Assembly: GCF_037076555.1 (NCBI RefSeq)
Contig: NZ_AP029023.1
Location: 682,001-746,000 of the forward strand
Direction of reading: 5' to 3'
DNA length: 64,000 nucleotides
From: Methylophilus sp. DW102
Lineage (GTDB): Bacteria > Pseudomonadota > Gammaproteobacteria > Burkholderiales > Methylophilaceae
Shown here: positions 33,964 through 40,321 of the stretch, piece by piece
Numbering within the stretch: the stretch's first letter is position 1
Layout: the number at the start of each line of letters is the position of its first letter
Made by a program: the position numbers and the translations under genes
The notes under the pieces: model-generated
Told to the model about the DNA's origin: nothing
Database searches by the model: none
The model's input: only the letters and a program-made list of their open reading frames with translations

Positions 33964-34043
33964 GCGGCTGGTGTGAATTAAGAAAGATGTAATTTCATAA
34001 AACTGTCACAATTGAAAGCATTGCAGCCGATACAATATCCGCC

Positions 34044-36083
34044 ATGAAAAATAACACGCCCGCCCTGCTAGACAGAGACCAAAGTATCCTCAGTTTTAAT
34101 GCTAGAGTGTTGTCTCTGGCTCAGCGAGAGGACTATCCCTTGCTGGAGCGTTTACGCTTTTTGTGTATCGTCACCAATAACCTTGACGAGTTTTTCGAAG
34201 TCCGCATGCCTTTGCAGATGGAGGCATATCAGCAAGGCGTGACCAGTGGCCCGGTGACTGCGTCGACCTGCGAGCAAGTAGCGACCATGGCGCATGCGCT
34301 GGTGGCCCAGCAATACCAGCTGTTTAACGATGCGCTGATGCCGGCGCTGGCAAAAGAGCACGTACATCTGGTCTCGGGTGGGGTCAGGACCCCAGAGCAA
34401 ACCACCTGGGTGTCTAATTACTTCAAGCGTGAAGTGTTGCCGTTCTTGATGCCAGTGTCGCTGGACCCTTCGCATCCTTTTCCGCAAGTGGCTAATAAAT
34501 CGCTCAACTTTATTGTGCGCATTGCCGTCGATGGTGAAGAGAAAATCGCCATCGTACGTGCGCCGCGTGTGGTTCCGCGCCTGGTGCAATTGCCACCGTC
34601 TATTAGCAAAGGAGAACAGTGCTTCGTCTCACTAACTAGCATCATCCGCGCCAATCTGGAGGTTTTATTCCAAGGCGCCAGCATCCTGCATTTTTCCCAG
34701 TTCCGCGTCACCCGCAACAGTGACCTTGAGGTGGATGAAGATGATGTGATCAACTTGCGCACAGCGTTACGTGAAGAGCTGGCGCATCGGCAGTATGGTG
34801 AAGCGGTGCGACTTGAGGTGACACAAGAATGCGACGACACGCTGGCCGAGTTTTTACTCAAGCAATTTAACCTGCCGCCACTGGCGTTATACCGCGTGAA
34901 TGGTCCGGTGAATCTGGGCCGCCTGATTCAGCTGCCAGACATGGCCAAAGGAGATCATCTCAAGTTTGTGCCATTCCAGCCGCACTGGCCGCAGCACATC
35001 AAAAAAAATGTTTCGCTGCTGACGCAAATGCGCGAAAAAGATTTGCTGATCCACCAGCCTTACGAGAGTTTCGAAGTGGTGATCCAGCTACTGGAAGAAG
35101 CGGTCAAGGATGAGCATGTACTGGCCATTCGCATGACCATTTACCGGACTGGGGCGGATCCACGCATGTTGCGCTTGCTGCAAGAGGCAGTGCGCCGTGG
35201 CAAGGAAGTGCTGGTGGTGGTTGAACTCAAGGCGCGTTTTGACGAAGAAGCCAACATCAACTGGGCAGAAGCATTGGAGTCGGTGGGCGCGCAGGTGGTG
35301 TATGGCGTGGTCGGCCTCAAAACACACGCCAAGATGCTGTTGATTATGCGCCGTGAGGGCAAGGTGATACACCGCTACGGGCATCTTTCCACCGGCAACT
35401 ACAACCCGAAAACCACGCGTTTGTATACCGACTGGAGCATGTTGACCGCGGATGCCAATCTGACCAAGGAAATGGAAGCCGTCTTCCGTCACTTGACCAG
35501 CGAGCTGCCGATCCCGACCATGCGTCATCTGCTGGTGGCGCCCTTTACCCTGCAAAACAGCATGATCCGGCAGCTGGAAAAGGCGCAGCGCCTGGCCAGA
35601 CTGGGCAAGCCCGCCAAGGTGATTGCTAAAATGAATGCGCTGACCGATGTCCCGCTGGTCAATGCACTCATGAAGGCCGCCAGTGCCGGCGTTGAGATTG
35701 ATTTAATTGTGCGTGGGGCCTGCATCTTGCCGGTGGATGCGCCGTCGGTTAAAGGCCGCATTCGGGTCAGATCCATTGTCGGTCGCCTGCTCGAGCATTC
35801 ACGCGTGTTTTACTTTGAGCTGGATGGTCAGGTGCAGATGTGGTTGTCGAGCGCAGACTGGATGAGCCGCAACATGATCCGCCGCGTAGAATTGGCCTGG
35901 CCAATCAAAGACCCCGCCATGCAGCAACGCATTTATCGCGAAAGTCTACAGCTTTACCTGCAAGATAATCTGGATGCCTGGCAATTGAGTGAGAATGGGC
36001 AATATCAACAGGCCGCGCGGACTGATGCTGCCGAGCCCTTGTCTTGCCAGCACCTGTTACTGCGCCAGTATCATTCTTTATAA
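34044..36083 (+). CDS. ppk: Polyphosphate kinase 1
   Basis: PPK1 reversibly polymerises the gamma phosphate of ATP into polyphosphate. The 679-residue enzyme has the N-terminal LSFNARVLSLAQREDYPLLERLRF and NNLDEFFEVRM motifs, then VVELKARFDEEANINWA, the phosphorylated His in LKTHAKM and a second His in RLLEHSRVFYF, plus STGNYNPKT. It starts the polyphosphate locus: sixA lies 9 bases downstream and ppx at 38185. Confidence 0.96.
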   Translation: MKNNTPALLDRDQSILSFNARVLSLAQREDYPLLERLRFLCIVTNNLDEFFEVRMPLQMEAYQQGVTSGPVTASTCEQVATMAHALVAQQYQLFNDALMPALAKEHVHLVSGGVRTPEQTTWVSNYFKREVLPFLMPVSLDPSHPFPQVANKSLNFIVRIAVDGEEKIAIVRAPRVVPRLVQLPPSISKGEQCFVSLTSIIRANLEVLFQGASILHFSQFRVTRNSDLEVDEDDVINLRTALREELAHRQYGEAVRLEVTQECDDTLAEFLLKQFNLPPLALYRVNGPVNLGRLIQLPDMAKGDHLKFVPFQPHWPQHIKKNVSLLTQMREKDLLIHQPYESFEVVIQLLEEAVKDEHVLAIRMTIYRTGADPRMLRLLQEAVRRGKEVLVVVELKARFDEEANINWAEALESVGAQVVYGVVGLKTHAKMLLIMRREGKVIHRYGHLSTGNYNPKTTRLYTDWSMLTADANLTKEMEAVFRHLTSELPIPTMRHLLVAPFTLQNSMIRQLEKAQRLARLGKPAKVIAKMNALTDVPLVNALMKAASAGVEIDLIVRGACILPVDAPSVKGRIRVRSIVGRLLEHSRVFYFELDGQVQMWLSSADWMSRNMIRRVELAWPIKDPAMQQRIYRESLQLYLQDNLDAWQLSENGQYQQAARTDAAEPLSCQHLLLRQYHSL

Positions 36084-36092
36084 AAGTGTGTG

Positions 36093-36557
36093 ATGCCCGT
36101 TAAAAACCTGATTTTATGGCGACATGCAGAAGCAGAGGTGCTCATGCATGGGGCCTCTGACCTCGAGCGGCCGCTGACCGCCAAGGGACACAAACAAGCC
36201 AAGCAAATGTCCGCCTGGCTCAAAAAATACTTGCCCAAACAAACGTATGTGCTGGTGAGTCCTGCCGTGCGTACGCGTGAAACCGTGGATTACTGGGGAG
36301 AGGACTGGCAGGAAGATACGCGTCTGGCGCCGGAAAGGCCGCTAGAGCCGCTACTGCAAATCCTGGCGCAAAGCCCGTTTGAATCGATGATGCTGGTCGG
36401 TCATCAGCCCTGGATAGGCGAATTGGTTGCGCATGCCTTGGGCTTGCCAGAAGGGCAGGTCAGCATCAAGAAGGGCGCGGTCTGGTGGCTGCGCTTGCCC
36501 AAATCGGGGCCGCCCTACAAATTATATAGCGTGCAAAGCCCCGAGCTGATCAAGTAA
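36093..36557 (+). CDS. sixA: Phosphohistidine phosphatase SixA-type
   Basis: The 154-residue protein is a histidine-phosphatase-superfamily enzyme with the RHAE motif (ILWRHAEAEV) and a second active-site His (VGHQPWIGE). SixA dephosphorylates phosphohistidine proteins in E. coli. It follows ppk by 9 bases, a pairing seen in other proteobacteria. A role in controlling phosphotransfer tied to polyphosphate is inferred. Confidence 0.88.
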   Translation: MPVKNLILWRHAEAEVLMHGASDLERPLTAKGHKQAKQMSAWLKKYLPKQTYVLVSPAVRTRETVDYWGEDWQEDTRLAPERPLEPLLQILAQSPFESMMLVGHQPWIGELVAHALGLPEGQVSIKKGAVWWLRLPKSGPPYKLYSVQSPELIK

Positions 36558-36603
36558 GCGCGTAGTGGCCTATTGCCACTACATGCGCCGCGTGTGAACC
36601 AAC

Positions 36604-37089
36604 TTATTTCTTTGGTCTGCCGGTTTTAATCACTGGAATGCTGGCCAGCGTGGCTTTTAACGCTGCATCATCCATGGCAGACAGCAGTTTCAGGCCTGCG
36701 CGTAACAATTCGCTTTTCTTGACGGGTTTATCCAGCGCTTCAAGGCGTTTTTTCAAAGTCGCGATTTGTGCGTACTCTTCTTTGGGCATGGTAAAGCTGT
36801 CACGTTCCATTTTGACCTTGTTGGTTTTTGGTTTGTCCTTGTCGGCCTTGTCTTTTTCAGGTGCCGTGGCGACTTTGTTCACGACTTTGATCGCTGGTGT
36901 GCCGCTCGCTTTTTTAGGCGCTGCAGCCGTTTTTAACACTGGTTTGGCGGCTGGTTTGGTTGCTACGGGTGCCACTGGTTTTGCAGCCGTTTTATTGGCA
37001 ACAGGCGCCTTGGCGGTGGCAGCCGGTTTCGCTGGCGTCGTGGCCGGTTTGTTCTGGATCAAGGGTTTGTTATTTGGTTTGCTGGCCAT
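36604..37089 (-). CDS. Histone H1-like Lys/Ala/Pro-rich protein with ribbon-helix-helix-like C-terminus
   Basis: The N-terminal 90 residues of this 161-residue protein consist almost wholly of Lys, Ala, Pro, Thr and Val, with short repeats such as KPAA, AAKPV and TKPAAKPV, like bacterial histone H1 mimics and AlgP. The last 70 residues look folded: MERDSFTMPKEEYAQ then a helical segment LKKRLEALDKPVKKSELLRAG, with a strand-helix-helix layout as in ribbon-helix-helix DNA-binding domains. The start at 37089 is preceded by GGAG. It lies divergently next to a ParA-type gene, inside the ppk-ppx locus. A role in DNA tethering is inferred from composition; no family assignment is claimed. Confidence 0.75.
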   Translation of the reverse strand: MASKPNNKPLIQNKPATTPAKPAATAKAPVANKTAAKPVAPVATKPAAKPVLKTAAAPKKASGTPAIKVVNKVATAPEKDKADKDKPKTNKVKMERDSFTMPKEEYAQIATLKKRLEALDKPVKKSELLRAGLKLLSAMDDAALKATLASIPVIKTGRPKK

Positions 37090-37113
37090 GAGATTCTCCT
37101 GGTTGGGTTCAGT

Positions 37114-37135
37114 AAAAACAGTTTATACTGTTTTT
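37114..37135. promoter_or_regulatory. Palindrome in the divergent promoter region: candidate operator
   Basis: The arms AAAAACAGT and ACTGTTTTT flank TTAT in perfect symmetry, 24 bases upstream of the H1-like gene start. The adjoining gene encodes a ribbon-helix-helix-like protein, so autoregulation is an attractive inference. Confidence 0.5.
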
Positions 37136-37232
37136 GTTCAAAATCAATTGTCATAAAAATTTCATATTGATATGGTGTGATATCAGCTGGTTTTCATGAC
37201 AAAATTCAACACCTTGAAACGGGGAGCGAAGC

Positions 37233-37853
37233 ATGCGCAGGGTATTGGTGGCAAATACCAAAGGCGGCAGCGGTAAAACCACTTTAGCCACGAATCTTGC
37301 TGGCTATCTGGCGCAGCTGGGCCATAAGATTGTGCTCGAAGACATAGACCGGCAGCAATCAACCACAGATTGGCTTGCGCGTCGGCCCGCACATGTCGCC
37401 ACTGTTTACAATGCCGATGATCTCGGCAAGTCCGCCCTGCAAAAGGCCGACTGGGTAATTACCGATTCCCCTGGTGGTTTGCGGGACAAAAAAATTTCTG
37501 ATGCAGTGACTGAAGCCGACCTGGTATTGGTTCCCGTGGCGCCTTCTGCATTTGATATCGGCGCGACGCAAGACTTTTTGCAATTGCTGGCAGAAGAAAA
37601 AGCCGTCCGTAAACATAAAACATTTGTGGGTCTGGTTGGCATGCGGGTGATGCCGCGTACGCGTTCCGCAGAGCGTCTGTTGACCTTTATGGATGAGTCA
37701 GGCTTTTCTGTGTTGTCCATGCTGCGTTCTTCGCAGATTTATGTCACTGCCGCCGAAGAAGGCCTCAGTATTTTTGAATTGTCGAATACCTTGAAAGAGG
37801 TCGACATTGCACAGTGGAATCCGGTCACCGACTGGATTCTGCAAAACAGCTAA
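37233..37853 (+). CDS. ParA/MinD-type positioning ATPase
   Basis: The 206-residue protein carries a deviant Walker A motif TKGGSGKTT and VLEDIDRQQST in place of the usual Asp-x-Asp-Pro-Gln, followed by DWVITDSPGG (Walker B-like) and a short C-terminus. Such small ParA-like ATPases without an N-terminal DNA-binding domain are typical of orphan, McdA-like or cargo-positioning systems as well as plasmid type Ib ParAs. No ParB is adjacent; the neighbouring H1-like protein with a ribbon-helix-helix-like domain could be the partner. Location between sixA and ppx points to polyphosphate metabolism. Ordinary chromosome ParA is unlikely, as that sits by the origin with parB. Confidence 0.88.
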   Translation: MRRVLVANTKGGSGKTTLATNLAGYLAQLGHKIVLEDIDRQQSTTDWLARRPAHVATVYNADDLGKSALQKADWVITDSPGGLRDKKISDAVTEADLVLVPVAPSAFDIGATQDFLQLLAEEKAVRKHKTFVGLVGMRVMPRTRSAERLLTFMDESGFSVLSMLRSSQIYVTAAEEGLSIFELSNTLKEVDIAQWNPVTDWILQNS

Positions 37854-37901
37854 ATCCGGTCTGTTTAAACAGCCGGATAGTAGACAATCAAAGGGAGTCC
37901 T

Positions 37902-38147
37902 ATGAAAGACAAGGTCAATCCAGTGTATCTGGATAAAGTCAAACAATTACCTGCCGATGAGGCTGAGCGTATTCTGTCCCGCATGGGAGGTAAATTACCC
38001 AAACGCTTCATCAAGGAAAAACTGAGCCAGGAAGAAGCCCTGGCCTTGCAGCTTGAAATTGAAGACGAGCAATTGCAAGAGTGGCGCGAAAAAATGGCCA
38101 AGCTCAAGGAAGAAGACGAGAAGAAAGAGAAAAAGAAAAAAGAGTAA
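37902..38147 (+). CDS. Small charged coiled-coil-like protein
   Basis: The 81-residue protein is preceded by a good AAAGGGAG site and follows parA by 48 bases. It starts MKDKVNPVYLDKVKQLPADEAERILSR-like text and becomes an unbroken highly charged helix from about residue 38, ending in a poly-Lys/Glu tail. I recognise no family. The terminator after it marks the end of the parA unit. It might be an adaptor for the ParA protein; that is speculation. Confidence 0.7.
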   Translation: MKDKVNPVYLDKVKQLPADEAERILSRMGGKLPKRFIKEKLSQEEALALQLEIEDEQLQEWREKMAKLKEEDEKKEKKKKE

Positions 38148-38156
38148 GTTTTGATC

Positions 38157-38187
38157 AAAAAAAACGGGCCTGGCGCCCGTTTTTTTA
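38157..38187. terminator. Bidirectional terminator between the small charged gene and ppx
   Basis: ACGGGC pairs with GCCCGT around CTGGC and is flanked by A and T runs. It overlaps the ppx stop codon on the other strand, so it can serve both convergent transcripts. Confidence 0.88.
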
Positions 38188-39663
38188 CGTGTGTCGAATC
38201 TCTAATTGCCAGCCCAGTTTTTGCCACAGCAGGCACTCTTCCTCCAGCAGGTAATGCGTCTGTGGATGCTGGTTTGCCCATTGCGTGGACAGCGCCAGAA
38301 TAAACTGCTGTTTATGGCGTTCCAGCTGCAGGTGCTTGAGCGAGGGCATGCGGCGGGAATGGCAAAAGATTACGGCCAGACGCAATGCCATGAGCTGGCA
38401 AACCAAATCCTGATTATCAAAGTCTGCATCCAGTTTGCGTAACTTGCCTTGATGGCCGAGCACCAGCAGGCTGATGGTATGCAGTTCACTTTGCGCAAAG
38501 CCCATCAATTCGGTGTTATCCAGAATATAGGCGCCGTGTTTGTTGCAATCGGTATGTGAAATCGCCCAGCCAATTTCATGGCACAGCGCCGCCCAATGCA
38601 GCAGTGGCTTCTGCGTATCACAGGCCAGCATGGCGTCGTAAAAATACAGCGCCATTTTGCTGACGTTGTTGGCATGTTCCATTTCGACACCAAATTGCTT
38701 GCACAATCTGGCAATCGACGCAGTACGCAAATCTTCGGTGACATCTTCCGGGTTTAGCATGTCATAAAGTACGCCATGCCTTAACGCGCCGTTAGCCACC
38801 ATCAGCGTGTCAATTTTCAAGGTATCAAATACTGCGGTCAGTACGGCCAGGCCACCGCCAATCACTGCACGCCGGTCATCCTTGAGGCCTTCCATGTTCA
38901 GCCGGTCTGGCGATTTGGCTTTGATCAGCGTCTGCTTTAGCCACTCCAGCTGCGCGCGTTCAATGCGGTCAGCCGCGAAGCCTGCGCCTGCCAACACATC
39001 GGCGACCGCGCCCACCGTGCCCGAGGCACCATAGGCCACTTCTGCTTTTCCGACATAGCGGTTGGCAATCATGTCGATAATCGACTCGGCGGCAATTTCG
39101 GCGCGTTCAAAATTACGTTCGCTAAACTGGCCATCGGCAAAATATTTTTGTGACCAGCCCACCGAGCCCAAGCGCAAGGATTCCGTTACCGTGGCGCGGA
39201 AGTGTTGACCCAAAATAAACTCGGTAGAGCGTCCGCCAATATCCACCACCAGACGCTTTTCGTCCGATTGCGGCAACATGCGGCTGACGCCCTGATAAAT
39301 CAGCCTGGCCTCTTCGACGCCAGAAATAATCTCAATCGGATAGCCCAGGACTTTTTGTGCCTGGCGGATAAAATCTTCGCTATTGGTTGCTTCTCGCAGG
39401 GTTTGGGTCGCGACAGCGCGCACATGTTCTACCGGGAAATCTTTCAGACGCTCGCCAAAGCGGGCCAGGCATTTCAGGCCGCGCTCAAACGCCTGCGGTT
39501 TCAGATTTCGGTCTTCGTCCAGGTCACCGCCCTGGCGGACCGCCTCTTTCAAATAATCCACGCGCAGAATCTGGCCATCGACCACGCGCCCGATCTCGAG
39601 ACGAAAACTGTTGGAGCCCAAATCTACAGCGGCGAGCTGGGTGTCATGATTAATATTTAGCAT
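38185..39663 (-). CDS. ppx: Exopolyphosphatase
   Basis: Ppx removes phosphates from the end of polyphosphate chains; GppA homologues also hydrolyse pppGpp. The 492-residue protein has the ASKHA motif AAVDLGSNSFRLEIG, VEEARLIYQGV, the phosphate motif DIGGRSTEF (the usual Gly is Arg, as in many betaproteobacteria) and a C-terminal HD-like domain (HEIGWAISHTDCNKHGAYI). It points towards ppk and completes the locus. Its start region lacks an evident ribosome binding site. Confidence 0.93.
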   Translation of the reverse strand: MLNINHDTQLAAVDLGSNSFRLEIGRVVDGQILRVDYLKEAVRQGGDLDEDRNLKPQAFERGLKCLARFGERLKDFPVEHVRAVATQTLREATNSEDFIRQAQKVLGYPIEIISGVEEARLIYQGVSRMLPQSDEKRLVVDIGGRSTEFILGQHFRATVTESLRLGSVGWSQKYFADGQFSERNFERAEIAAESIIDMIANRYVGKAEVAYGASGTVGAVADVLAGAGFAADRIERAQLEWLKQTLIKAKSPDRLNMEGLKDDRRAVIGGGLAVLTAVFDTLKIDTLMVANGALRHGVLYDMLNPEDVTEDLRTASIARLCKQFGVEMEHANNVSKMALYFYDAMLACDTQKPLLHWAALCHEIGWAISHTDCNKHGAYILDNTELMGFAQSELHTISLLVLGHQGKLRKLDADFDNQDLVCQLMALRLAVIFCHSRRMPSLKHLQLERHKQQFILALSTQWANQHPQTHYLLEEECLLWQKLGWQLEIRHT

Positions 39664-39681: not shown

Positions 39682-39957
39682 TTACTTAAGATAGCGTTGT
39701 ATGGCCTGTGGGTACTCTGGGAAATAGCGTTCAATCACGCTTAAATCAAAGCTTCTCAAAATGCTGGTGTTCGATTCCCGGTCAAGTAAAAACTGAAACG
39801 AGGCACTGACCAGTTCTGCCACCGTTTGGCTGGCATCAAGCAATGGTTGGGCATAATCTGGCTTGACATTCACTTGATGTGAGGTGGTTTGTGTCCCATG
39901 CACCGTGACAGAAAATGAATTGGGACTGGTCTCAGTCACCTCAATTGTTGCCATCAT
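39682..39957 (-). CDS. Small hypothetical protein upstream of ppx
   Basis: The 91-residue protein starts at an ATG at 39957 after GGGGAGG. It reads MMATIEVTETSPNSFSVTVHG and is followed by strands then a helical end with SVIERYFPEYPQAIQRYL. No family is recognised. It lies 18 bases upstream of ppx on the same strand, so it is probably co-transcribed with ppx. Confidence 0.7.
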   Translation of the reverse strand: MMATIEVTETSPNSFSVTVHGTQTTSHQVNVKPDYAQPLLDASQTVAELVSASFQFLLDRESNTSILRSFDLSVIERYFPEYPQAIQRYLK

Positions 39958-40321
39958 TGCCTCCCCAGACACATCGTTCAAACAGTATAAATTGTTATGT
40001 TGGCAGAGGCCAGTGAAAGTAATATGAAAAAATCAGCGATGACCAGCGCGCTGGCGTGCGCCTTTCGTAAAGGCGAGCAAATACAAGGCTCTGCCCGGTC
40101 ATGACGTTGGTTCGCATTCTAAAAAGAATAAAAATTTAATCGCGATCCTGGGTGTTTTTGTATTTTTTCTGCTGGACTCCACCTCGTCCATGCCATAGCA
40201 CTTAGATAAACGGGGTGGGCGGCACTGATTAAGGCCGACCAGCGGCAATGCACACTCACCGCCTGCCATGCTGGGGAGCACTTTTACCTTGCATGCAAGC
40301 GGCGAAGGCACTCGCCTTTGC
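39958..40321. other. Intergenic region without a convincing gene
   Basis: The plus strand has a hydrophobic stretch (LIAILGVFVFFLLD) ending at a TAG near 40195, but no start codon in frame after the previous stop. Inverted copies of AAAGGCGAG occur near 40069 and 40306. Nothing else is supported. Confidence 0.5.

Follow-up and report, generated by a model that had tools for sequence, protein, structure and literature searches.

A candidate PhoB-regulated ParA module for the positioning of polyphosphate granules at a ppk1-ppx locus of Methylophilus sp. DW102

Cargo positioning by ParA-type ATPases is a known kind of function. McdA binds the nucleoid, and carboxysome-bound McdB triggers its ATPase and release, so that carboxysomes are spaced (PMC13052382). 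For polyphosphate (polyP) granules, the entry in the table of the same 2025 review of bacterial organelle positioning, as excerpted, is AlgP, and the review leaves the energy need for granule placement open and describes the responsible Caulobacter proteins as unidentified (PMC13052382). AlgP of Pseudomonas aeruginosa is an H1-like protein with 25 KPAA repeats that is needed for even granule spacing, and the main text of the AlgP paper does not mention ParA (PMC9239181). A folD-ppk-parA-CHAD cluster has been described in Acidithiobacillus, where the ParA is termed a plasmid or chromosome partition protein, CHAD proteins bind or sit on polyP granules (PMC10892726, PMC6416229) and cyclic AMP is suggested to link energy status with metabolism and cell division (PMC6416229). 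Here we describe a locus of Methylophilus sp. DW102, within a window of 64,000 nucleotides (the whole stretch analyzed; NZ_AP029023.1, positions 682,001 to 746,000) of a 3.02-Mb genome, in which genes for an H1-like protein, a small ParA-type ATPase and an 81-residue protein, p81, lie among polyP genes. From its gene content, linkage, co-inheritance, PhoB-type boxes and intact ParA motifs, all read directly from the genomes, we lean modestly toward a PhoB-regulated, ATP-driven module that would position polyP granules.

An earlier reading of this stretch, made from the sequence alone, had placed three genes between ppk/sixA and ppx, namely one for an H1-like protein, a divergently read small parA and an open reading frame (ORF) of 81 residues, and coordinates together with Pfam and NCBIfam matches confirm that arrangement:

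34044..36083, + strand: ppk1, polyphosphate kinase 1 (Pfam and NCBIfam)
36090..36557, + strand: sixA-like histidine phosphatase (PF00300; TIGR00249 score 61.7 bits vs a cut-off of 74.5)
36604..37089, - strand: H1-like protein, Lys/Pro/Ala-rich N terminus (about 93 residues) and conserved C-terminal domain with a KTGRPKK end
37233..37853, + strand: parA, small ParA-type ATPase (Pfam and motifs)
37902..38147, + strand: p81, 81-residue ORF with helices and a charged tail, probable ParA partner
38185..39663, - strand: ppx/gppA, exopolyphosphatase family (Pfam and NCBIfam)

Twelve ppk-linked Methylophilus loci were compared, and all share the gene order ppk-sixA-H1-parA-p81-ppx, with additional genes in the p81/ppx gap of L186; among the other Methylophilus genomes, parA is found elsewhere in G043 and G050, and G096 has no full-length parA. 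As in McdA/McdB, a small ParA-type ATPase is encoded with a small charged partner beside genes that serve a storage or metabolic body, and that pair is our model for how the locus might work; the present locus differs in that its cargo would be polyP granules, in its PhoB-type control, and in that no solved chain related to p81 was detected. The sequence-only reading knew of no described ParA of this kind, which needs amending because the trio ppk-parA-CHAD is in print for Acidithiobacillus, and stands insofar as no role in granule positioning is proposed for that cluster in the excerpts of either paper (PMC10892726, PMC6416229). No ParA proposed for polyP granules was found in the open-licence literature searched.

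ParA/MinD ATPases are marked by a KGGxGKTT Walker A motif with a signature lysine and by aspartates in Walker A' and Walker B. These deviant Walker motifs are intact in the window ParA, with K10, G11, G12, G14, K15, T17, D37, D39 and D78 each conserved at 95% or above in 131 relatives. The protein exceeds the cut-offs for Pfam AAA_31 and CbiA and scores 133.1 bits against NF041546, the NCBIfam equivalog for ParA family partition ATPases, below the cut-off of 180. It is the sole full-length match in its own genome; the second, weak match is the chromosomal ParA, encoded at another place beside ParB and GidB. No ParB is found by Pfam among the nine neighbors scanned, in agreement with the earlier description of a ParA-type ATPase without ParB. 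Full-length ParA occurs in 64 of 100 Methylophilaceae genomes and in 105 of 200 Burkholderiales genomes, both samples being draws, from the family and the order, respectively. The Methylophilaceae sequences form one tree group of 68 leaves (support 0.99; FastTree, midpoint root), in which contexts with sixA and CHAD, also found in family f14, lie on early branches and Methylophilus and genus g7 are nested within; five loci (L036, L046, L187, L191 and L192) were left out of this tree and of the neighborhood comparison below. The best plasmid match among those listed shares 42% identity with ParA (on a 1.18-Mb replicon; the next rows are at 33 to 36%), chromosomal relatives from other families share up to 56%, and p81 was not found in the plasmid collection. 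Derivation from a plasmid partition system with ParB, which the sequence-only reading had named as a threat to its own proposal, is not what these matches indicate. One genome, G112, holds two ParA-CHAD pairs (G112:C7 and G112:C50), one of them about 6 kb from an H1-like gene with phoB about 1 kb off (L235).

The likely partner of this ParA is p81, for which co-inheritance is suggestive. Both genes occur in 58 of the 100 Methylophilaceae genomes, ParA only in 6, p81 only in 2 and neither in 34 (Fisher P = 3e-18), and without the streamlined genera the corresponding counts are 58, 6, 2 and 11 (P = 1e-7), both P values ignoring phylogeny. Counts inside single genera, given in the same order, are 9, 1, 0 and 6 in g7 and 4, 1, 0 and 4 in g21. 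In the p81-only genome G026, a ParA match with several stops lies beside p81 (G026:C1:1743061-1743979), and parA seems to be decaying there. Among 20 p81 genes examined that lie away from ParA, in 19 genomes, no neighbor cluster recurs at more than four. The genomes G001, G025, G077, G088 and G215 each contain between two and four p81 matches. The 24 sequences of the p81 family share a conserved core of about 60 residues, followed by a variable tail, short and charged at one extreme and long and Lys/Pro/Ala-rich at the other. A conserved segment, RxLSRMxGKLPxR, is a candidate for the interface between ParA and p81. An AlphaFold model of p81 (mean pLDDT 80) consists of short helices and a single long C-terminal helix, and the p81 profile gave no match to solved chains.

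The long KPA tail of p81 and the H1-like gene are distributed in opposite ways. In 50 of the 60 p81 genomes, counted by hand with genera g6 and g10 entered twice and with weak H1 matches (44 to 55 bits) in G008, G015 and G024, the H1-like gene is present in 0 of 15 with a tailed p81 vs 31 of 35 with an untailed one; at the level of genera the figures are 0 of 8 vs 8 of 11 (P = 0.003). Within g6, one genome has a tailed p81 and no H1-like gene, and another has the reverse. We infer that the same basic tail may be carried by either p81 or the H1-like protein.

Neither this co-inheritance of parA and p81 nor the regulatory signal described next was part of the sequence-only reading. Sites were scored against a PhoB-type consensus, and the relevant elements are as follows:

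33992..34009, + strand: PhoB-type box, 52 bases before ppk1 (18.2 bits, tied for the highest score in the window)
37148..37165, + strand: PhoB-type box, 85 bases before parA, in the divergent H1/parA gap (18.2 bits)
37148..37176, + strand: sigma-70-like promoter TTGTCA-17-TATGGT with extended -10, overlapping the parA box
40013..40030, - strand: weaker PhoB-like site upstream of a 99-residue ORF and ppx (16.6 bits)

The ppk1 box is found at -52 or -53 in all 12 Methylophilus loci compared and scores at least 14 bits in 10 of them, and the parA box reaches that score in 12 of 12. At or above 18 bits the window holds two sites vs none in its reversed control, and at or above 15 bits five vs two. 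The genome contains six copies of the pattern TGTCATN5TKTCAY and the control none; three of the six lie ahead of parA, phoB (TIGR02154, 356 bits) and a porin-like gene, respectively. For p81 genes that do not follow parA, 19 of 20 loci have a box scoring at least 14 at -73 to -104, including loci far from ppk1 (L184, at a contig edge, was left out), and among the p81 genes away from parA, 10 of 20 carry a box in the correct orientation between -56 and -97 vs 10 of 1,209 background ORF upstreams. The sigma-70-like promoter is weak evidence alone, since only two such promoters were found in the region where shuffled sequences predict 4.3. By boxes at promoter distance, parA and ppk1 are predicted to belong to the PhoB regulon.

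The H1-like protein had been described as a Lys/Ala/Pro-rich KPAA-repeat protein with a ribbon-helix-helix-like C terminus. Its composition fits (21 Lys, 14 Pro and 22 Ala in the N-terminal 93 residues), and the repeat was overstated: there are two exact KPAA motifs and no long tandem array of the AlgP/PhaF type. The C-terminal 66 residues form the conserved domain, which has no Pfam match, and a middling single-chain model of the protein contains helices only, with no ribbon-helix-helix match listed; that part of the description was not confirmed. In likeness to AlgP (PMC9239181, as excerpted), it combines a Lys/Pro/Ala-rich tail with a small helical domain and is linked to polyP, here by gene linkage alone; it differs in having two exact KPAA motifs rather than 25, an N-terminal tail, a conserved domain of its own and a gene beside ppk1, sixA and ppx. 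A possible operator or promoter element of the H1-like gene lies on its side of the divergent gap:

37114..37135, no strand assigned: inverted repeat AAAAACAGT-N4-ACTGTTTTT

The core of this repeat, AAAACAGTTTATAC(C/T)GTTT, is kept in all 12 aligned sequences, the window included.

Because the H1-like gene stays near ppk1, sixA and ppx in genomes that lack ParA, and because this linkage recurs in other families, the H1-like protein is linked to polyP independently of ParA. It is found in 45 of the 100 Methylophilaceae genomes (46 matches), and 42 of the 46 have ppk1 at a distance of 8 kb or less, including nine in ParA-negative genomes; the four exceptions are in G015, G024 (two) and G081, in the last of which no ppk1 was found. 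Genomes G006 and G043 have ppk-sixA-H1-ppx with no intervening parA. Across the order it occurs in 43 of 200 genomes (45 matches, including that of the DW102 genome), and at least 17 of the 45, in at least 7 of 19 families, have ppk1 or CHAD within 10 kb, where 1.1% per match would be expected for an assumed 3.6-Mb genome; these order-wide counts are lower bounds, with the ppk at L228 and L229 left uncounted. Within 1.5 kb on either side of 29 other H1-like loci, 12 have ppk1, sixA, ppx, CHAD or ppk2, one has phoB, one has ParA and 15 have none of these. The exact order ppk-sixA-H1-ppx recurs in a different family (L229), and ppk-H1-sixA-ppk2 or H1-CHAD is found elsewhere. In family f24 (L240, L242, L245 and L256) the H1-like gene has ppk1 on one side and sixA with a ppk2-like gene (named from sequence) on the other, and in L228 the domain order is swapped, with the conserved domain first and the Lys/Pro/Ala tail last.

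The ParA neighborhoods of relatives show a recurrent association with polyP genes in varied arrangements. In genus g7, three loci (L159, L162 and L167) read ppk-sixA-H1-ppx-p81-parA, L160 likewise without p81, and L164 and L168 ppx-p81-parA; in four further loci p81 and parA are divergent and polyP genes are not nearby. Many Methylophilaceae genera have sixA-parA-CYTH/CHAD, genus g19 has p81-parA, with ppk coming next at two of six loci, and family f14 has sixA-parA-CHAD or ppk-parA-CHAD. In three of three loci of f14 genus g93 (L096-L098), the ppk1 stop overlaps the parA start (ATGA), and the next gene encodes a CYTH-CHAD protein in L096 and L097, not in L098. These two loci contain the Acidithiobacillus trio and are set beside it by gene names, not by ParA kinship (PMC10892726, PMC6416229, as excerpted). 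Pfam confirms CYTH and CHAD in two downstream proteins scanned; some proteins downstream of parA are shortened, and genomes G002 and G016 have no CHAD match. Across Burkholderiales, CHAD is present in 83 of 105 ParA genomes vs 45 of 95 ParA-less ones, and ppk1 in 102 of 105 vs 82 of 95, neither comparison being corrected for phylogeny or genome size. The link to polyP is drawn from the linkage of the H1-like gene, the CHAD and ppk neighbors of parA and the PhoB boxes. Genes for a DUF6394 protein and a TrkA-N ion channel are frequent downstream neighbors of parA or parA-CHAD (L077-L093, L138, L144 and L171-L175, also in family f20) and are a possible extra part of the cluster.

Several observations weigh against a granule-positioning role. 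Of 119 Burkholderiales ParA matches, at least 12, in at least 4 of 34 families, have ppk1 or CHAD within 10 kb, and because these are so few, the link between ParA and polyP is invisible by position in most families; elsewhere ParA adjoins scpA-, recR- or ilvD-like genes, among others (named from the sequences). Three of the 105 ParA genomes have no ppk1 match. No CHAD was found in the window proteins scanned, and the DW102 genome has no PF05235 match at 1e-8. The p81 gene is absent from 6 of the 64 Methylophilaceae ParA genomes and was found in just 9 of the 200 Burkholderiales genomes; therefore, other families need a different or diverged ParA partner. A Foldseek search with the p81 model returned a best E value of 6.1 and matched no known adaptor, and the co-occurrence statistics carry the phylogenetic limit given above. 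As to regulation, sites of at least 12 bits number eight in both window and reversed control, only the top sites being distinct, and boxes scoring at least 14 precede 3 of 27 sixA genes in sixA/parA clusters and 0 of 3 ppk genes in f14. The polyP linkage claimed in the sequence-only reading accordingly survives in part: it extends to the H1-like gene in several families and to ParA in some, with PhoB-type boxes shared with ppk1, and fails for ParA in most families, up to 107 of the 119 order-wide matches not being within 10 kb of ppk1 or CHAD. For the H1-like gene, up to 28 of 45 are likewise distant across the order, which is not so in Methylophilaceae.

The distribution of ParA and p81 could also reflect a nucleoid or cell-cycle module of phosphate starvation with no granule cargo, in which PhoB induces both proteins and the polyP genes adjoin through a shared regulon. 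The PhoB box is indeed a very constant feature of p81 even far from polyP genes, p81 relatives have basic Lys/Pro/Ala tails that would suit DNA or polyP binding alike, and most ParA copies of other families have no positional link to polyP; however, other lineages have parA tightly clustered with ppk1 or CHAD and its presence tracks both, and we consider this explanation unlikely. That a stray chromosomal ParA landed by chance among polyP genes in Methylophilus would agree with the fluid location of ParA over Burkholderiales, but is very improbable given the recurrent and varied association with polyP genes, the PhoB-type boxes and the co-inheritance of p81, and this reading was already disfavored.

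A further possibility concerns which protein partners ParA. As in type Ib plasmid partition, the divergent H1-like protein could be a ParG-like DNA-binding partner that represses a shared promoter, with p81 an accessory. Among solved structures the window ParA is closest by sequence to ParF 4dzz and ParA 5u1g, H1 and parA diverge around the conserved inverted repeat, and the two genes adjoin in family f5 (L232), with 3 of 45 Burkholderiales H1-like matches lying within 10 kb of a ParA of this type. The window ParA is nonetheless chromosomal, kept across genera on no plasmid and without a ParB found among its neighbors, and its Methylophilaceae relatives fall in one tree group, as for a chromosomal gene. 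The H1-like protein, for its part, showed no ribbon-helix-helix match in Pfam or in the middling model and is encoded near ppk1 in nine ParA-negative genomes, while its gene is absent from 29 of the 64 ParA-carrying Methylophilaceae genomes; we regard such a pairing as rather improbable. The same absences, and the far better tracking of ParA by p81, speak against the earlier assignment of the H1-like protein as the ParA adaptor. The hunch behind the sequence-only reading stands on firmer ground than the reasons given for it, and p81 is the more probable adaptor.

If granule positioning is the function, ParA-ATP dimers would coat the nucleoid, and p81, located on the nascent granule or the granule's enzyme layer, would stimulate the ParA ATPase, such that granules trail ParA across the nucleoid and are spaced and apportioned at division. 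The H1-like protein would be a separate, passive Lys/Pro/Ala tether or spacing factor between granule and DNA, similar to AlgP or PhaM; in most examined genera without the H1-like gene, p81 itself has such a tail and might take that part, and where relatives have CHAD proteins, these probably anchor the granule. The physical contacts, DNA binding, granule localization and movement in this scheme we infer from genomic evidence.

Two other features of the locus are a terminator noted by eye, which the terminator scan did not list, and a small ORF present in all 12 Methylophilus loci compared, with no Pfam or NCBIfam family above cut-off:

38157..38186, no strand assigned: two-way terminator in the p81/ppx gap
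39682..39981, - strand: 99-residue ORF on the same strand as ppx and upstream of it

Taken more broadly, a PhoB-induced ParA and a new adaptor family, p81, with the Lys/Pro/Ala tail on p81 or on a ppk-linked H1-like protein and CHAD phosins as alternative granule anchors, might constitute an ATP-driven system for polyP-granule positioning, a phosphate-responsive cousin of McdAB across Burkholderiales and perhaps Acidithiobacillia; to this wider proposal we give slightly less than even credence. If true, the locus offers an ATPase, a partner and a tether for the placement of polyP granules and couples that placement to the phosphate-starvation switch, and p81 and the H1-like domain, both families without annotation, gain a testable role.

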